64,000 nucleotides of DNA, from positions 1,488,001 to 1,552,000 of the forward strand of contig NZ_CP010976.1 of NCBI RefSeq assembly GCF_000949425.1, in the 5' to 3' direction. The translations under genes and the position numbers were made by a program. Source of the stretch: Paenibacillus sp. IHBB 10380. GTDB taxonomy: Bacteria > Bacillota > Bacilli > Paenibacillales > Paenibacillaceae. The number at the start of each line of letters is the position of its first letter. Positions within the stretch are counted from its first letter, which is position 1. Under the pieces are notes generated by a model that made no database searches, was not told where the DNA came from, and saw only the letters and a program-made list of their open reading frames with translations. Shown here one piece after another: positions 18,801 to 34,444 of this stretch.

Positions 18801-20147
18801 ATGAGTTATAGCAGCTCGAAATCTAACAGGGAAATCTTAGAATGCTCATTTAGTGATTGTTCATGTTCCGGCACTTTAAGCTGTAACGGAATTCCGCATA
18901 AGAAAGGTCCAACCGGTCCAACAGGAGCAACAGGAGCAACAGGAGTAGCAGGAGCAACGGGAGTAGCAGGGGCAACAGGAGCAACAGGAGCAACAGGAGC
19001 AACAGGAGCAACGGGAGTAACAGGAGTAGCAGGAGCAACGGGAGTAGCCGGGGCAACGGGAGCAACAGGAGTAGCAGGAGCAACGGGAGTAGCCGGGGCA
19101 ACGGGAGCAACAGGAGCAACGGGAGTAACAGGAGCAACGGGAGCAACAGGAGCAACAGGAGTAGCAGGAGTAGCAGGAGCAACGGGAGTAGCAGGGGCAA
19201 CAGGAGCAACAGGAGCAACAGGAGTAGCAGGAGCAACGGGAGTAACAGGAGTAGCAGGAGCAACGGGAGTAGCCGGGGCAACGGGAGCAACAGGAGTAGC
19301 AGGAGCAACGGGAGTAGCCGGGGCAACAGGAGTAACGGGAGCAACGGGAATAACGGGAGTAACAGGAATAACGGGAGCAACAGGAATAACGGGAGCAACG
19401 GGAGTAGCAGGAGCAACAGGAGCAACAGGAGCAACAGGAGCAACGGGAGTAACAGGAGTAGCAGGAGCAACAGGAGTAGCAGGAGCAACGGGAGTAGCCG
19501 GGGCAACGGGAGTAACAGGAGCAACGGGAGCAACAGGAGTAGCAGGAGCAACGGGAGTAGCAGGAGCAACGGGAGCAACGGGAGTAACAGGAGCAACAGG
19601 AGCAACGGGAGCAACGGGAGTAGCAGGAGTAGCCGGGGCAACGGGAGCAACAGGGCCCAATTTTGCTGCAGAAGGATTTTCGGCGTTCTTGTCTACTCTT
19701 ACCATATCCGCTAGTACCCAACTTACTAATTGGTCTATAGCGAATCCTAATTATGGAAGTGCCAATTTTAATCAAGTGACTGGAAATTTCACAGTTCCTG
19801 TTACTGGAAGGTACTCCATTTTAGCAACAATAAATTATTCCACGACGGCTGCTCTTGGCGTAAGTCTGGGTGCCGGAATAAATCCTTATTTTATTGCCCA
19901 AAGAACATCGCCTACAATCACTGGTCTGGTGAGTGGTCTTTTCCCTATATTAAATGTTAATATTGCATTGCTTTTGACATTAAGAGCTGTTCTCGGAAAT
20001 GGAGTTGTAACTTTGGCAGGAGAGTTTACACTCTCAGCAGGTGATGTTATTGGGCTGTTCTATAATGCGAACGGACTGACAGTCTCAATTAACATAGGTA
20101 GCAGTACTGTGAATGGAGTAGTTTGGTCCATGCATGAAATAACTTAA
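18801..20147 (+). CDS. BclA-like collagen-repeat spore surface protein
   Basis: 448 residues in three parts. Residues 1-35 are a short Cys-containing leader ([17 protein letters not shown]). Residues 36-287 are 84 uninterrupted Gly-X-Y triplets, almost all GAT, GVA, GVT or GIT, starting GPTGPTGAT and ending GPN; threonine in the third position is typical of O-glycosylated exosporium collagens. Residues 288-448 form a beta-rich C-terminal domain like the trimeric tip of BclA. Family knowledge: such proteins trimerise as hair-like filaments on spores. The next genes encode endospore-appendage-type subunits. GGAAAGGAAGGG precedes the ATG. The DNA repeat of about 9-45 bp units is prone to length change. 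Confidence 0.9.
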
Positions 20148-20298
20148 ACTTCATTAATAAGACTTATTGTTGAATTTTCTCTTATAGGCACCCTAACCTC
20201 TTTTGAAATAAATCTTGATAATGTATAACCATGTGCTGGATAGATTCATTTAATAGCAAGTAAGTATTTGAATAAGCGTTTTTGAAAGAGGGGGGAGA

Positions 20299-20907
20299 AT
20301 GCTGAAAAGGAGAAGTTGTTCAAGGAAAGAAGCCTTATTAACATTGATGATAGTTCTCGTGTTGCATTCCTCCTATATTCAGAAAAAAAAACGAAAAATC
20401 AAATGTATGATAAAGAAAAAGCGTTCTGGAAATCGAGAGCGAACGAGGAGATTCTCTCCCGTATTTCCGTGTCCTCCAAAGCCTTGTCACAGACAAAGAT
20501 CAGAGCCAAGGCGATGCACCATTCCACATTGTATACATCCTGCAGATCCTGCAAAGCATCCTTCCAAATTCGTTGTAGAAAAAGATTGCTGTGGAAATAT
20601 ATTAATCCAAGGAAAGCAGCTTGGATTTCAAATATGGGAGATTGATGTAGAATCAAATATCAATGTGGCACAGATTAGCATTTATTCTAATTCAATGAGC
20701 ACAGATGCTTTAGAGGTAGAAATTGATGGTGCAGAAAGGAAGTATATGTATGTACCTCCGGGCAGTACAACCAATTTTATAGGGCAGGGCATCAAGTCAA
20801 TAAAAATTTCTTCACAAGGTAATGAGTTGACGTATGTGGAAGGGAGATATGTCATTTCAACTACCTTTCAATTACAAGCTAATTCCGCTTTAGTTAATGA
20901 ACAATAA
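20299..20907 (+). CDS. Spore-surface protein with basic N-terminus and Ena-like beta domain
   Basis: 202 residues. The first 70 are strongly basic with Cys-Pro pairs (PVFPCPPKPCHRQR, then CTIPHCIHPADP). From about 95 a beta-sandwich-like domain starts at KDCCGNILIQGKQ and ends with the segment YVPPGSTTNF, then a hydrophobic strand, then GRYVISTTFQL. That order resembles the DUF3992 subunits downstream (CC pair first; VIPAGGSSSF near the end; EFCITVRYSL last), although sequence identity is low. Position between a collagen-like gene and two Ena-type genes supports a role in linking or capping spore appendages. The start at 20299 has AGAGGGGGGAGA just upstream. Function is inferred, not recognised. 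Confidence 0.7.
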   Translation: MLKRRSCSRKEALLTLMIVLVLHSSYIQKKKRKIKCMIKKKRSGNRERTRRFSPVFPCPPKPCHRQRSEPRRCTIPHCIHPADPAKHPSKFVVEKDCCGNILIQGKQLGFQIWEIDVESNINVAQISIYSNSMSTDALEVEIDGAERKYMYVPPGSTTNFIGQGIKSIKISSQGNELTYVEGRYVISTTFQLQANSALVNEQ

Positions 20908-20910
20908 GAA

Positions 20911-20940
20911 AGGTGGTTCTTCAGAAAGGAAGAACCACCT
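20911..20940. terminator. Bidirectional terminator between the Ena-like gene and the S-Ena operon
   Basis: Perfect 12-bp stem AGGTGGTTCTTC/GAAGAACCACCT with a 6-nt loop between convergent genes. Confidence 0.8.
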
Positions 20941-20959
20941 AATTATTAGACTAATCGTT

Positions 20960-21295
20960 TTAAAGGCTGTAACGCACTGTGATACAGAATTCGCCTTGTG
21001 CTGCTGCTGTCGCTGTTAATGAAATGGTATCAAATCGTGCTACAGTGAATGATGAGCTTCCTCCTGCTGGAATAACAATTGTTTGAATGGCAGCAACGAT
21101 TCCCGTCTTGAAAAAGTTTACCGTCAAAGACCCAGTGCCGGTTTCAAACTTAACATACCCTGTACCACTGATAATTTGTGATATGTTGTCAGAATAAATG
21201 GTTTGAGTACCTGCTGCAGCTAATTGCCAATTCGTGCATACTTTATCTTGCACAATGATTTTATCCGAGCAACAACTAAGTGCTGAATTACACAT
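20960..21295 (-). CDS. S-type endospore appendage subunit (DUF3992), shorter copy
   Basis: 111 residues. The N-terminal connector has a Cys at position 2 and the CC pair in SALSCCSDKIIVQDKVC, then a jelly-roll-like body with NISQIISGTGYVKFETGTG, VIPAGGSSSFTVARFDTISL and the closing EFCITVRYSL. This closely follows the Ena1A/Ena1B subunits of Bacillus cereus, which polymerise on the spore surface through disulphides between the N-terminal connector cysteines and the body of neighbouring subunits. AAGGAGGG lies 10 nt before the ATG. It is the second gene of a two-gene operon, 27 bp after the larger copy. Confidence 0.88.
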   Translation of the reverse strand: MCNSALSCCSDKIIVQDKVCTNWQLAAAGTQTIYSDNISQIISGTGYVKFETGTGSLTVNFFKTGIVAAIQTIVIPAGGSSSFTVARFDTISLTATAAAQGEFCITVRYSL

Positions 21296-21322
21296 ATACG
21301 TGTAGCCCTCCTTTAAATCTTC

Positions 21323-21682
21323 TTATTGGACAGGGTAACGAGTCGTTATACAGAACTCGCCTTGATAAGTACCTGGTGTCGCTGCTGGTAGCGTTATTTG
21401 TATAACGCTGAAGCGTCGGTACGTAAAAGCTAGACTTGTTCCAGGTGTAAGTGTAATTGGAGCAGGATTAATAGCAGCTCCTGTACTGTCAATAGCTGCT
21501 GGTCCGATGTCATATTGCAAATATCCCGTACCCACTATATTTTGATTAATGTTATTCGTAAAGGTAACAACTAGAACATCAGCCGCGACAACAGTGCCAC
21601 TCCATGGTGTACATACTTTATCCTGAACAAAGTTCTTATCATTACAACAAGTTAAAGCGGATACAGCGGTATTACATGCCAT
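21323..21682 (-). CDS. S-type endospore appendage subunit (DUF3992), longer copy
   Basis: 119 residues; the first gene of the Ena pair. CNTAVSALTCCNDKNFVQDK gives the connector cysteines, the body has NINQNIVGTGYLQYDIGP, and the end is GEFCITTRYPVQ. The insertion IDSTGAAINPAPITL in the middle makes it longer than its partner. Two non-identical subunits in one operon is how Ena1A and Ena1B are arranged in B. cereus, where both are needed for fibres. AGGAG lies 10 nt before the ATG. Expression in the mother cell late in sporulation is expected from the family, but no confident sigma-K promoter was seen. Confidence 0.88.
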   Translation of the reverse strand: MACNTAVSALTCCNDKNFVQDKVCTPWSGTVVAADVLVVTFTNNINQNIVGTGYLQYDIGPAAIDSTGAAINPAPITLTPGTSLAFTYRRFSVIQITLPAATPGTYQGEFCITTRYPVQ

Positions 21683-21830: not shown

Positions 21831-22159
21831 AGGAGCTACGGCATGATGAGAGACAAAAGTCTAATCGTTTGATAGATGAAAATCACCGTATCTACTTCAA
21901 CGAAAATAATGCTTGGATTCATCAAAAATTTCTCGTTAAAAAAATTAATGAAATGACTCCATACTTGTCCCGAATATTGGATGAGGGAACTAAAGAAGGA
22001 TTTTTTAAAGTTGAACATGCACAAGAAACTGCTGAATTTTTACTAACCGCAGTTAATTTCATGTTAGATCCAGGTATCTTCGAGTTGGAGGATAGTAAGC
22101 TGGAAGAAAAAAAGAATGTGGTGAAAAATATAGTTAAAAATGTAGTGATAAAAGACTGA
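21831..22159 (+). pseudogene. TetR-family regulator, C-terminal remnant
   Basis: The open frame encodes about 108 residues beginning ELRHDERQKSNRLIDENHRI and continuing through FLVKKINEMTPYLSRILDEG and KVEHAQETAEFLLTAVNFML, the ligand-binding half of a TetR regulator. The DNA-binding HTH is absent: the frame is closed by a stop at 21830 and the sequence upstream is the Ena promoter region. No ribosome binding site or credible start is present. It is a truncated gene without function as a repressor. Confidence 0.75.
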
Positions 22160-31273: not shown

Positions 31274-34200
31274 ATGACAACAAATACTACAGCGGAACAA
31301 ATCCTCATTATCGAGTACGACCCTTCCTACGCTGGGGCGCTCGCTGATATGTGGAACCGCAGCAACGAAAGTTGGGGAGGCGGCACGAACCAGAGAACGG
31401 AGGACACTGTGCGCCGGGAGATGGAAATTTCGTCCAATCTCTATGCGTTTCTCGCCGTCGATGGCAAGGAGGTTGTCGGCTTTTGTAGTTTCGCGCACTA
31501 CCGCCAAGACGAAGGGGCCTTGTATGTACCGCTGTTGAATGTGCGACCCGATTATCACGGCTACAAGGTCGGCCGCAATCTGATTTTGAACGCGGTTCGC
31601 AAAACAGTCGAAGCGGGTTGGCCGCGGCTCGATCTGTTCACATGGGCGGGCAACACCAAAGCTGTGCCGATGTACAAGAAATGCGGGTTCTTCTGGGAAA
31701 AAAATGATGATTCCGTCCACCTGATGAACTTCATTCCGACCATCTTGCAAACCGAAGCGCTCGCCCCTTATTTCGAGGAGCTGGATTGGTACGCAGACAG
31801 CACCCGCGAGCTCGTCATTGAGCCGGATGGTCGCCGGGAGCGCGGCTTCGATTTCTTTGATTACACCTGGGGTAAGGGAGATCTCTCCGTGCGAGCAGAA
31901 TTCGAAAAGACCGGTCGTGGGCTAACCGCTCTCGACACGCCAGACTATGCAATCTCCACCGAGATCGACGATCATGATCTTGTGTTCGGTTCCGCCTACA
32001 AAGTTCGCTATCGCATCAAGAACTGCTCGGCTTCCGAACTGGCGATTGAGATCAAGGGCCAGGACGACAAGAGTATCCGTTTTGCTCTGGCTGCTGCACA
32101 AAAGATCGCTCCGGGAGAAACAGTCATTGTGGAGGGGGAATTCGAGCTTGACCCGGTCCGGGAGGAGCAGAATGACAAGAAGACCCATCCCGTTGTCATG
32201 AGCCAATGGGTTATTGGTGGCAAGCGGGCCGAATTCCGCATGGGCATCGCTCCGAAATTCCCGGTCAAGATGAAGATGGCGCTGCCAGCCAAGGCACTTT
32301 ATCCGGGCATTCCGGCTGAGCTGTATCTGAACGTGGAGAACAATTTTGCCTCGGAAGCGGAGTTCGCTTTTGAATGGCCGGAGGATGAATGCGTGGAATG
32401 GGCCGAGCGTGCAGTACGCTTCACAGTTCCGGCTAAGGGCAAAGCATCTGTCCCGGTACCCTTCACCTTGCGGTCCTACGGACTTTACTCGCGTGAGGTT
32501 GAGGTGACGGCTGTTCCAGCCGAGAAGAAGGCAATTTCCTTCACAAGCAAGTTGTCTTTTCTGATGAAGGGAACTCAAGGTCGTTACGGAGGGGAAGACG
32601 GGGAACAGTGGGTCGCCGTGAACGGCGCATTCTCCCTCCATCTGGGCAAGCTCGATAATAACATGTGGATCGATTATCCTGGCTCCCACCACAGTTTCTG
32701 GTGGAACTATCCGAAGCTGGGTAAGCCGTTTGCGGAAGAATTCTCCAAGAAGCAGGCCAAAGAAGTGACGATCTACCCGGAAGGGGAGAGCCAGGTTCTC
32801 GAAGCCCTCTACGAATCGGAGGACTTTCCCGGCCTGCAGATGAAGTCGGTGGCTAAGCTGTTCGCAAGCGGCATCGTCGAATTTCATCACGAAATCTGTA
32901 ACACCAGTAGCAAAGGGCTGGAAGAGAATGTGTATCTGCTGACGAATTTCGGTTTCTTCGGTAACCGGCTCATCCTGCCGTACCAGGGCCATTATGTGGA
33001 TATGGGCGACGCTTACTCTGGCGATCCGGATCATTGGGACAGCGCCCAAATCACGGAGAACTGGCTGTTCTGCAAGGAAGAAAACGTCGCTTGCGGTATC
33101 TGCTGGGATCCTTCCTTGAAGCTGCTTCGCCCGGAATACCCGCTTGGGCTGGAGCATGATCTTGGCCGAATTTCCGCCGGAGCCGTCGTGCGGACGAAGC
33201 CGACCGTGTTTGCTCTGAACACCTTCGCCAAGTGGTGGGATTTCCGCTCCTTCGCCCGGAAACTGCGGAACCCGGTTGTACCGGTGCTGGACAATCATCT
33301 CGAACTGGCGCTTGGCGGCGGCAATCCGTTCGTGGCGGGGTCGCTGAATGCGGAGCTAATCGAACGAAAGATGGTTCCGCTCGCCGGGAGCCTCGAACTG
33401 TATGTGCAAAATGGTGGGGAACCGGAGCGGAAGGCCGCCGACATCGAGTTGCGCCGAGAGCAGGACCTGCACTCCGCGCACGTTGAGTTCTCTCCTGAGG
33501 AAAAGAAAGACCCGGATAACGGCGAATCCGGTTGGAAGATCCGGGCCGTCTATCGCGGTGAGGATCGGGTTCAGGAGCGGTCGGCTCTTTGGTTCCCTCG
33601 TACAGAAGCAAGTGTCATTTGTGAGATAGAGGAAGGTGCGGCAGGTCCCGTGTACACGGTGAGCAACGGAGTTCTCTCGATAGCGGCTGCCCCCGGCTTC
33701 GGCAGCGTCGTGCATTCCCTGAAGCACCAAGGCGAAGAATGGCTAGACAGCTCCTATCCGGAAGCGGTCCCGCGTTCCTGGTGGAATCCCTGGTATGGAG
33801 GACTCGGTGTGGACATCTCCGGCATGAGTGGCTTTAGCCGACAGCAGGAGCAGAGAAGTGCGACTTGGGCGGAGCGGAGTGATATGCACGGCAACATCTG
33901 GAAGGGACTCCGAATGACGACTGTCATCGAAAAGCAGGAAGCGAATCGGGGGATCACGATACACCAGCATTACCTTATGCTGCCCGGTGTCCCTGTTCTC
34001 TGTGTGCTGCATTCGGTGACCAACGAAAGTGGCATGGTTCTGCCGCATTATTCACTCACTGACGATAATTTCTTCAAGCCTTCACCTGTCTTCTCCGAAG
34101 GATGGATGGAAATCCCCGGAGAAGGAAAATTCCTTCTCGGAAAGCTGGAAGCCCATCTTCATTCCAAGGGACTCTTGCGAATCGGTGCGGTTTCTCGTCA

Positions 34201-34444
34201 GAACATGCTGCATGTAGTGAATAGTTGTCACAATCAGAGCGCTTCGGCGTATGTGAACAACAAAGTGTTCAGTCAAGATGTGCATCACCATCTTTCACTT
34301 CTGAATGGGGAAACCGTCTGGACACAGCAGACCTTTCTGATCTTGGGTCGAATGGCTCTGAATCCGGAGGATGTTCGTGACCTTCTGAAGCTTACCTTTG
34401 CCAGCCCTACCGACAAAAAGGAGACCTTATATGCCGATCATTGA
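31274..34444 (+). CDS. Large GNAT acetyltransferase fusion with a beta-rich C-terminal region
   Basis: 1056 residues. Residues 1-160 are a GNAT domain: VDGKEVVGFCSF, then VRPDYHGYKVGRNLILNAVR (acetyl-CoA loop) and AVPMYKKCGFFWEKND. The following 900 residues are beta-rich, with Ig-like stretches at about 230-430 and then a region (YPGSHHSFWWNYPKLGKPF, later SWWNPWYGGLGVDISGM and VLHSVTNESG) reminiscent of galactose-mutarotase-like folds of carbohydrate enzymes. AAGGAG lies 8 nt before the ATG. It overlaps the amidohydrolase gene by 14 bp, so they act together. Base composition is clearly richer in G+C than the surroundings, suggesting transfer. The substrate is unknown; glycan or amino-sugar acylation is a guess. 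Confidence 0.78.
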   Translation: MTTNTTAEQILIIEYDPSYAGALADMWNRSNESWGGGTNQRTEDTVRREMEISSNLYAFLAVDGKEVVGFCSFAHYRQDEGALYVPLLNVRPDYHGYKVGRNLILNAVRKTVEAGWPRLDLFTWAGNTKAVPMYKKCGFFWEKNDDSVHLMNFIPTILQTEALAPYFEELDWYADSTRELVIEPDGRRERGFDFFDYTWGKGDLSVRAEFEKTGRGLTALDTPDYAISTEIDDHDLVFGSAYKVRYRIKNCSASELAIEIKGQDDKSIRFALAAAQKIAPGETVIVEGEFELDPVREEQNDKKTHPVVMSQWVIGGKRAEFRMGIAPKFPVKMKMALPAKALYPGIPAELYLNVENNFASEAEFAFEWPEDECVEWAERAVRFTVPAKGKASVPVPFTLRSYGLYSREVEVTAVPAEKKAISFTSKLSFLMKGTQGRYGGEDGEQWVAVNGAFSLHLGKLDNNMWIDYPGSHHSFWWNYPKLGKPFAEEFSKKQAKEVTIYPEGESQVLEALYESEDFPGLQMKSVAKLFASGIVEFHHEICNTSSKGLEENVYLLTNFGFFGNRLILPYQGHYVDMGDAYSGDPDHWDSAQITENWLFCKEENVACGICWDPSLKLLRPEYPLGLEHDLGRISAGAVVRTKPTVFALNTFAKWWDFRSFARKLRNPVVPVLDNHLELALGGGNPFVAGSLNAELIERKMVPLAGSLELYVQNGGEPERKAADIELRREQDLHSAHVEFSPEEKKDPDNGESGWKIRAVYRGEDRVQERSALWFPRTEASVICEIEEGAAGPVYTVSNGVLSIAAAPGFGSVVHSLKHQGEEWLDSSYPEAVPRSWWNPWYGGLGVDISGMSGFSRQQEQRSATWAERSDMHGNIWKGLRMTTVIEKQEANRGITIHQHYLMLPGVPVLCVLHSVTNESGMVLPHYSLTDDNFFKPSPVFSEGWMEIPGEGKFLLGKLEAHLHSKGLLRIGAVSRQNMLHVVNSCHNQSASAYVNNKVFSQDVHHHLSLLNGETVWTQQTFLILGRMALNPEDVRDLLKLTFASPTDKKETLYADH

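Follow-up and report, generated by a model that had tools for sequence, protein, structure and literature searches.

The stalk of the S-type endospore appendage (S-ENA) is wired by disulfides that run from Cys10 and Cys11 of subunit i to Cys109 of subunit i−9 and Cys24 of subunit i−10 (PMC8619143). The fibre is polar, with its connectors pointing toward the spore, and on Bacillus paranthracis spores it is held at its base by Ena1C, a nonameric ring (PMC12921279). In that account, Cys142 of Ena1C is the equivalent of stalk Cys109 and is needed for anchoring, Cys148–Cys154 bonds close the ring, and the ena1C gene is orientated opposite enaB. Docking of Ena1C to the coat is described with a Cys/Pro-rich N-terminal linker. 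S-ENA clusters were held to be unique to the B. cereus group by a 2021 review (PMC8619143).

Collagen-like proteins form the tips of two other appendage types, L-BclA on L-ENA and F-BclA on F-ENA (PMC11952670, PMC12921279). F-ENA also has F-Anchor, marked by an exosporium leader and a fibre-type domain (PMC11952670). The genes of the S-ENA tip fibrillae were called unidentified in 2026 (PMC12921279). One candidate from B. thuringiensis, AGE80398.1, is put forward in a 2025 preprint (PMC11952670), and a suggestion cited in PMC12628813 is that L-BclA makes up some S-ENA tip fibrillae. Already known are S-ENA itself, Ena1C and the collagen tips of the L and F types; the new element is a set of 40 distinct S-ENA loci, of which 39 have next to them a collagen gene or the C-terminal domain of one. 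Our literature search, in which the original S-ENA and L-ENA results were represented through later papers, turned up no description of an S-ENA cassette linked to a collagen gene.

Results

Layout of the locus

The window, the 64,000-nucleotide stretch of DNA analysed as a whole, covers contig 1 positions 1,488,001–1,552,000 of the 5.79-Mb genome of a soil bacterium of the Paenibacillaceae. Four genes fill window positions 18801–21682, two on the plus strand facing two short ones on the minus strand (Table 1). An earlier note, made from the sequence alone, had proposed this four-gene locus in this order, with 84 Gly-X-Y triplets in the collagen-like protein and a two-gene operon of S-Ena subunits. 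All of this was borne out: the four ORFs are present, the triplets are those of Table 1, and both short ORFs match PF13157 (Enas, formerly DUF3992; cut-off 22 bits) and are separated by 27 bp.

Table 1. Features of the appendage locus, in window coordinates
Feature	Position	Strand	Remarks
Collagen-like protein, 448 aa	18801..20147	+	PF01391, 133.9 bits; candidate S-ENA tip fibrillum
N-terminal cysteine motif of collagen-like protein	18858..18890	+	11 residues, shortly before the repeats
84 Gly-X-Y triplets of collagen-like protein	18906..19661	+	Residues 36–287, unbroken
C-terminal domain of collagen-like protein, 161 aa	19662..20144	+	C1q/TNF-like by weak model
EnaC-like protein, 202 aa	20299..20907	+	PF13157, 35.8 bits; Ena1C (9t3p) by profile and fold
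CC pair of EnaC-like protein	20587..20592	+	Residues 97–98; matches place of stalk connector CC
EnaB, predicted S-ENA stalk subunit, 111 aa	20960..21295	-	PF13157, 113.1 bits; nearest solved relative Ena1B (7a02), E 1.3e-31
EnaA, predicted S-ENA stalk subunit, 119 aa	21323..21682	-	PF13157, 103.8 bits; nearest solved relative Ena2A (9i0y), E 1.8e-48

Two further ORFs of the window were recorded. A 96-aa ORF at 21869–22159 matches the C-terminal domain of a TetR-type regulator only (PF21303) and is possibly a gene remnant. A 1056-aa ORF at 31274–34444, with an acetyltransferase domain in residues 27–139 only, lies in a GC-rich stretch (57% at window 32001–34000, against about 40% around it).

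EnaA and EnaB are almost certainly S-ENA stalk subunits, as judged from their PF13157 matches, their solved relatives and the retention of the wiring cysteines. The connector CC pair and the acceptors Cys24 and Cys109 all align in both window proteins; across the EnaA and EnaB ORFs, the CC pair is kept in 72 of 73, Cys24 in 73 of 73 and Cys109 in 72 of 73. An F-ENA identity was rejected, as none of the four proteins had a DUF4183 match at E ≤ 10.

Recurrence and linkage of the four genes

The 65 loci compared (L039–L103) reduce to 46 distinct ones. Six were set aside, L063, L065, L066 and L067 as other DUF3992 types and L068 and L069 as paralogous places in the window's genome, which leaves 40 S-type loci with the window included, 36 from Paenibacillaceae and 4 from Gottfriedia/Bacillus. 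With the window EnaA as query (E ≤ 1e-8), 3 of 100 genomes of the genus matched, one of these with another DUF3992 type, as did 30 of 394 genomes of the family, four of these with other DUF3992 types; the stalk profile (E ≤ 1e-10) matched 4 of 398 genomes of the class, and the window's own genome is one of the matches in each of the three counts. The remaining three class matches carry divergent DUF3992 genes (one, two and one); in the 19–20 kb examined around each, collagen ORFs of 12 or more triplets were absent. A scan of named genomes with two peptide patterns gave 33 loci, including Paenibacillus, Cohnella, Thermobacillus, Gottfriedia and two Bacillus strains; it returned no B. cereus group record, so the comparison covers other groups.

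The EnaC-like gene is present at 38 of the 40 S-type loci, the exceptions being L097, at a contig end, and L099, with a broken enaA. A single stalk gene takes the place of two at three loci (L091, L092 and L103). The collagen gene or its C-terminal domain is absent at L099 only. Of the 39 copies, 35 appear as ORFs in the comparison of loci and four are short, cut or differently spaced (L045, L074, L071 and L077, the last being the same locus as L039); the L071 copy has about three triplets before the C-terminal domain. Among the 34 loci with both ORFs, 29 are arranged as in the window, four have all genes on one strand and one has the collagen gene reversed. At L056 collagen gene and enaC lie together, with the stalk genes 4 kb away.

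We compared 36 loci, chosen for having EnaC-like and stalk genes, gene by gene. One collagen family occurs in 28 of them. The next commonest neighbour family, whose start in our reading resembles an ABC transporter, is found in 19 of the 36 at a median of 7.8 kb, so the four genes are constant in an otherwise variable neighbourhood. Since the set recurs at 40 distinct S-type loci and no other family nearby is nearly as constant, the locus is not a chance assembly. These counts support the earlier proposal that the locus encodes an S-ENA fibre together with a collagen-like partner, and does so outside the B. cereus group.

The same linkage bears on whether the collagen-like protein is simply an ordinary BclA-like nap protein. 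Collagen-like genes are common, with matches in 12 of 12 genomes searched, and the window's collagen C-terminal domain is found in many other collagens. Yet the gene stands alongside ENA genes at nearly every S-type locus despite rearrangement, and its N-terminal motif is absent from the other collagen ORFs sampled (see below). A nap protein lying nearby is thus very improbable, and we rejected it on linkage.

A sigma-K-like scan (CATANNNT) gave hits upstream of collagen, enaC and enaA in 7 of 29, 4 of 34 and 10 of 33 regions, with 7.2, 9.4 and 11.8 expected, which is no enrichment.

Several of the loci set aside have features of their own. At L068:9113–10116 (window's genome, contig 1 at about 3,723,100–3,724,100) two further PF13157 proteins are encoded divergently, scoring 37 and 39 bits; the first has 157 aa and a strongly basic N-terminus, the second 125 aa, and the pair may represent a second appendage type. 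L069:9856–10476 (window's genome, contig 1 at about 2,270,500) is a lone EnaC-like paralogue of 206 aa whose domain ends early, and the whole-genome search gives a stop within the match. L063:9278–13439 holds three tandem DUF3992 subunits of another type together with a collagen that has an LYCC N-terminus and a C-terminal domain belonging to the window's family.

The EnaC-like protein

The earlier note had given the 202-residue protein a CC pair, a PPGSTTNF string, a basic Cys/Pro N-terminus and a final EFC-like strand. The first three are all there, but the last strand is wrong: it reads EGRYV, and no cysteine lies C-terminal to the CC pair. The likeness to DUF3992 that the note drew was upheld by the PF13157 match and by structure prediction, which gave a DUF3992 fold, and no unrelated fold turned up. 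A single-sequence search found Ena1C (9t3p) weakly (E 1.2e-4), and with a 16-sequence profile Ena1C was the sole match at E ≤ 0.01 (E 3.4e-14). The AlphaFold2 model, built from 33 sequences, is confident across most of the β domain, with block means below 70 for residues 1–90. Foldseek ranked Ena1C first for this model (E 1.4e-10, target TM 0.84), followed by ENA stalk subunits. Homologues of the 202-residue protein that carry a species name come from Paenibacillus, and databases already label such proteins S-Ena type endospore appendage.

The protein thus resembles the Ena1C ring in fold, in profile match, in its Cys/Pro-rich N-terminal linker and in its gene, which faces enaB. The linker, 96 residues with 6 Cys, 10 Pro and 27 Lys/Arg, is longer and more basic than that of Ena1C. 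In contrast to Ena1C, the protein has no equivalent of Cys142, Cys148 or Cys154, the Cys142 position being occupied by a valine (GRYV), and it carries a CC pair that Ena1C lacks. For this reason we use the name Ena1C-like and stop short of assigning the protein to Ena1C itself.

This inversion prevails in the family. Among 38 EnaC-like members, 33 have the CC pair without the acceptor cysteine, three have both, two have the acceptor only and none has neither; the CC pair is therefore found in 36 and an equivalent of Ena1C Cys142 in five. In its aligned part, Ena1C has the acceptor and lacks the CC pair. Among the members with a CC pair are the EnaC-like proteins of L045 and L083, the latter being the same locus as L046.

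Where the protein sits on the fibre is uncertain because its cysteines are inverted relative to Ena1C at 33 of 38 loci. We favour the base over the tip because profile and predicted fold are both nearest Ena1C. Base anchoring is the likeliest role on homology, gene orientation and linker type, and from sequence and model the protein is probably the base anchor. The main rival places the protein at the far end of the fibre, as a distal connector. It would be a donor-type ring, bonded by its CC pairs to acceptors left free on the final stalk turn, and the collagen fibrillae would be mounted on it, with the base held in some other way. The prevailing CC-without-acceptor pattern, the reverse of Ena1C, would suit such a ring, and so would the position of the gene, which adjoins the collagen gene and at L056 lies with it away from the stalk genes. 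However, sequence and fold are nearest a base anchor, the Cys/Pro-rich N-terminal linker is of the kind described for coat docking of Ena1C, and the few members with both cysteine types or the acceptor alone indicate a graded change. We consider a distal connector unlikely. The earlier note had suggested that the 202-residue protein may be the connector between fibre and tip; as stated, this is unsupported, the nearest solved relative being the base anchor Ena1C.

The N-terminus and C-terminal domain of the collagen-like protein

If its 84 triplets form a triple helix rising 0.28 nm per residue (PMC11952670), the window collagen would be about 71 nm long; predicted lengths for complete ORFs of relatives are mostly 23 to 154 nm. 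The model of the C-terminal domain is weak (pLDDT 66), with TNF-family and C1q domains as best Foldseek matches, and C1q (PF00386) is precomputed for many homologues. By C-terminal sequence the collagens split into one group of 27 and another of 9, both behind the same conserved N-terminal motif; the L067 and L103 collagens probably enter the second group through repeat residues.

Of the 37 readable collagens at ENA loci, 34 have that motif, which is of the LSC[N/D]G type, against none of 35 other collagen ORFs; the pattern was drawn up after the ENA collagens had been viewed. The control ORFs were sampled from 12 of these genomes, in 29 stretches chosen among the matches listed. The motif is also absent from all 120 proteins listed among the 223 that match the C-terminal domain; these are mostly members of one near-identical family. 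It is conserved and, within our sample, specific. At other DUF3992-type loci the collagen N-termini read LYCC or FACC (L063 and L067), and no collagen was shown at L065 or L066. The window's genome also has, on contig 1 at about 2,728,500–2,744,500, a cluster of three collagen-like reading frames, all of them long (1091, 1784 and 1245 aa); two of their N-termini were read, both without the ENA-type motif.

No exosporium-leader family was found on the window protein among NCBIfam matches at E ≤ 10, a search in which HMMER filters may miss short weak matches. When collagen residues 1–45 were used to search for homologues, none of 80 candidates reached E ≤ 0.001. On a connector score built from 47 stalk connector peptides, 34 ENA collagens ranked above 34 controls (p 9.5e-10). 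When each was compared with shuffled versions of itself, only 6 of the 34 reached p < 0.05, with a median p of 0.16 and 0.39 for the window. On this own-composition control, the collagen N-terminus does not stand out as a mimic of the stalk connector.

Discussion

On balance we read the locus as a self-contained S-type endospore-appendage cassette, with a stalk of EnaA and EnaB, a C-like anchor ring and a collagen tip fibrillum. EnaA and EnaB would polymerise into a disulfide-linked helical stalk, as their homologues do, and the EnaC-like ring, by analogy with Ena1C, would use its basic Cys/Pro-rich linker to fasten the base of the stalk to the spore. The collagen protein would trimerise through its C1q-like head and make up the tip fibrillae, at the fibre end away from the spore. 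Since the connectors point toward the spore, the final helical turn at that end would keep its acceptor cysteines free, and about nine at position 109 and ten at position 24 are to be expected. The LSC[N/D]G-type peptide may bond these acceptors as an incoming stalk subunit would. With three N-termini to each collagen trimer, there would be room for about three trimers; the reported numbers of fibrillae per fibre are 4–6, 3–4 and 1–3.

In related bacteria this set is likewise accompanied by a collagen gene, a good tip candidate for that reason, and the collagen protein is, as far as its sequence tells, quite probably the S-ENA tip. Its linkage at 39 of 40 loci is kept through rearrangement (29, 4 and 1 of 34), the N-terminal motif separates ENA collagens from controls, and two C-terminal groups share that motif. 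The lack of an exosporium-leader match and the precedent of L-BclA and F-BclA argue the same way. The reading is weakened by the shuffle control, since the collagen N-terminus resembles the stalk connector no more than its own residues rearranged. We also count against it the missing Cys142, Cys148 and Cys154 equivalents of the EnaC-like protein, the single cysteine (LSCN) of the window collagen in place of the CC pair reported for L-BclA, and the lack of sigma-K-like promoter enrichment.

Alternatively, the collagen protein could lie at the fibre base and help EnaC couple stalk to spore, in a position like that of F-Anchor in F-ENA. Its gene adjoins enaC at nearly all loci, and L056, where the two stay together away from the stalk genes, fits a base role equally. 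But the two marks of F-Anchor are wanting, as there is neither an exosporium-leader match nor an ENA-type C-terminal domain, and the L063 and L067 collagens lie 2–3 kb from other DUF3992 stalk types in stretches where an EnaC-like match is absent. This makes a base position improbable. It is also rather unlikely that the third DUF3992 protein of Paenibacillaceae changed from a base acceptor ring into a distal donor ring, one that caps the stalk by bonding its CC pairs to free acceptors on the last turn and carries the collagen fibrillae; the fibre would then be attached to the spore by something else. With EnaC-like as the favoured base ring, the cassette points to an anchor with altered bonding chemistry.

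S-ENA extends beyond the B. cereus group, and at 39 of 40 loci, mostly from Paenibacillus and Cohnella, the collagen gene belongs to the S-ENA cluster. The question of the tip can therefore be tested by single gene deletions.

Among described collagens, AGE80398.1, compared here by its published description only, is likewise collagen-like with a C1q end, a cysteine-rich N-terminus and no exosporium leader; it was found through similarity to L-BclA, and linkage to S-ENA genes is unmentioned in the passage describing it. With L-BclA and F-BclA the window collagen shares a collagen stalk, a C1q-like end (by weak model), a cysteine-rich or docking N-terminus and fibre genes nearby. Unlike them, it is tied to S-type stalk genes, and its LSC[N/D]G motif differs from the CC of L-BclA and the hydrophobic hook of F-BclA. 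The ena1ABC and ena2ABC clusters of the B. cereus group resemble the window cassette in their tandem pair of PF13157 stalk genes, in a third PF13157 gene facing them and in identical wiring cysteines of the stalk subunits. The window cassette differs from these clusters in lying outside the B. cereus group, in a third protein without the Ena1C cysteines and in including a collagen gene.
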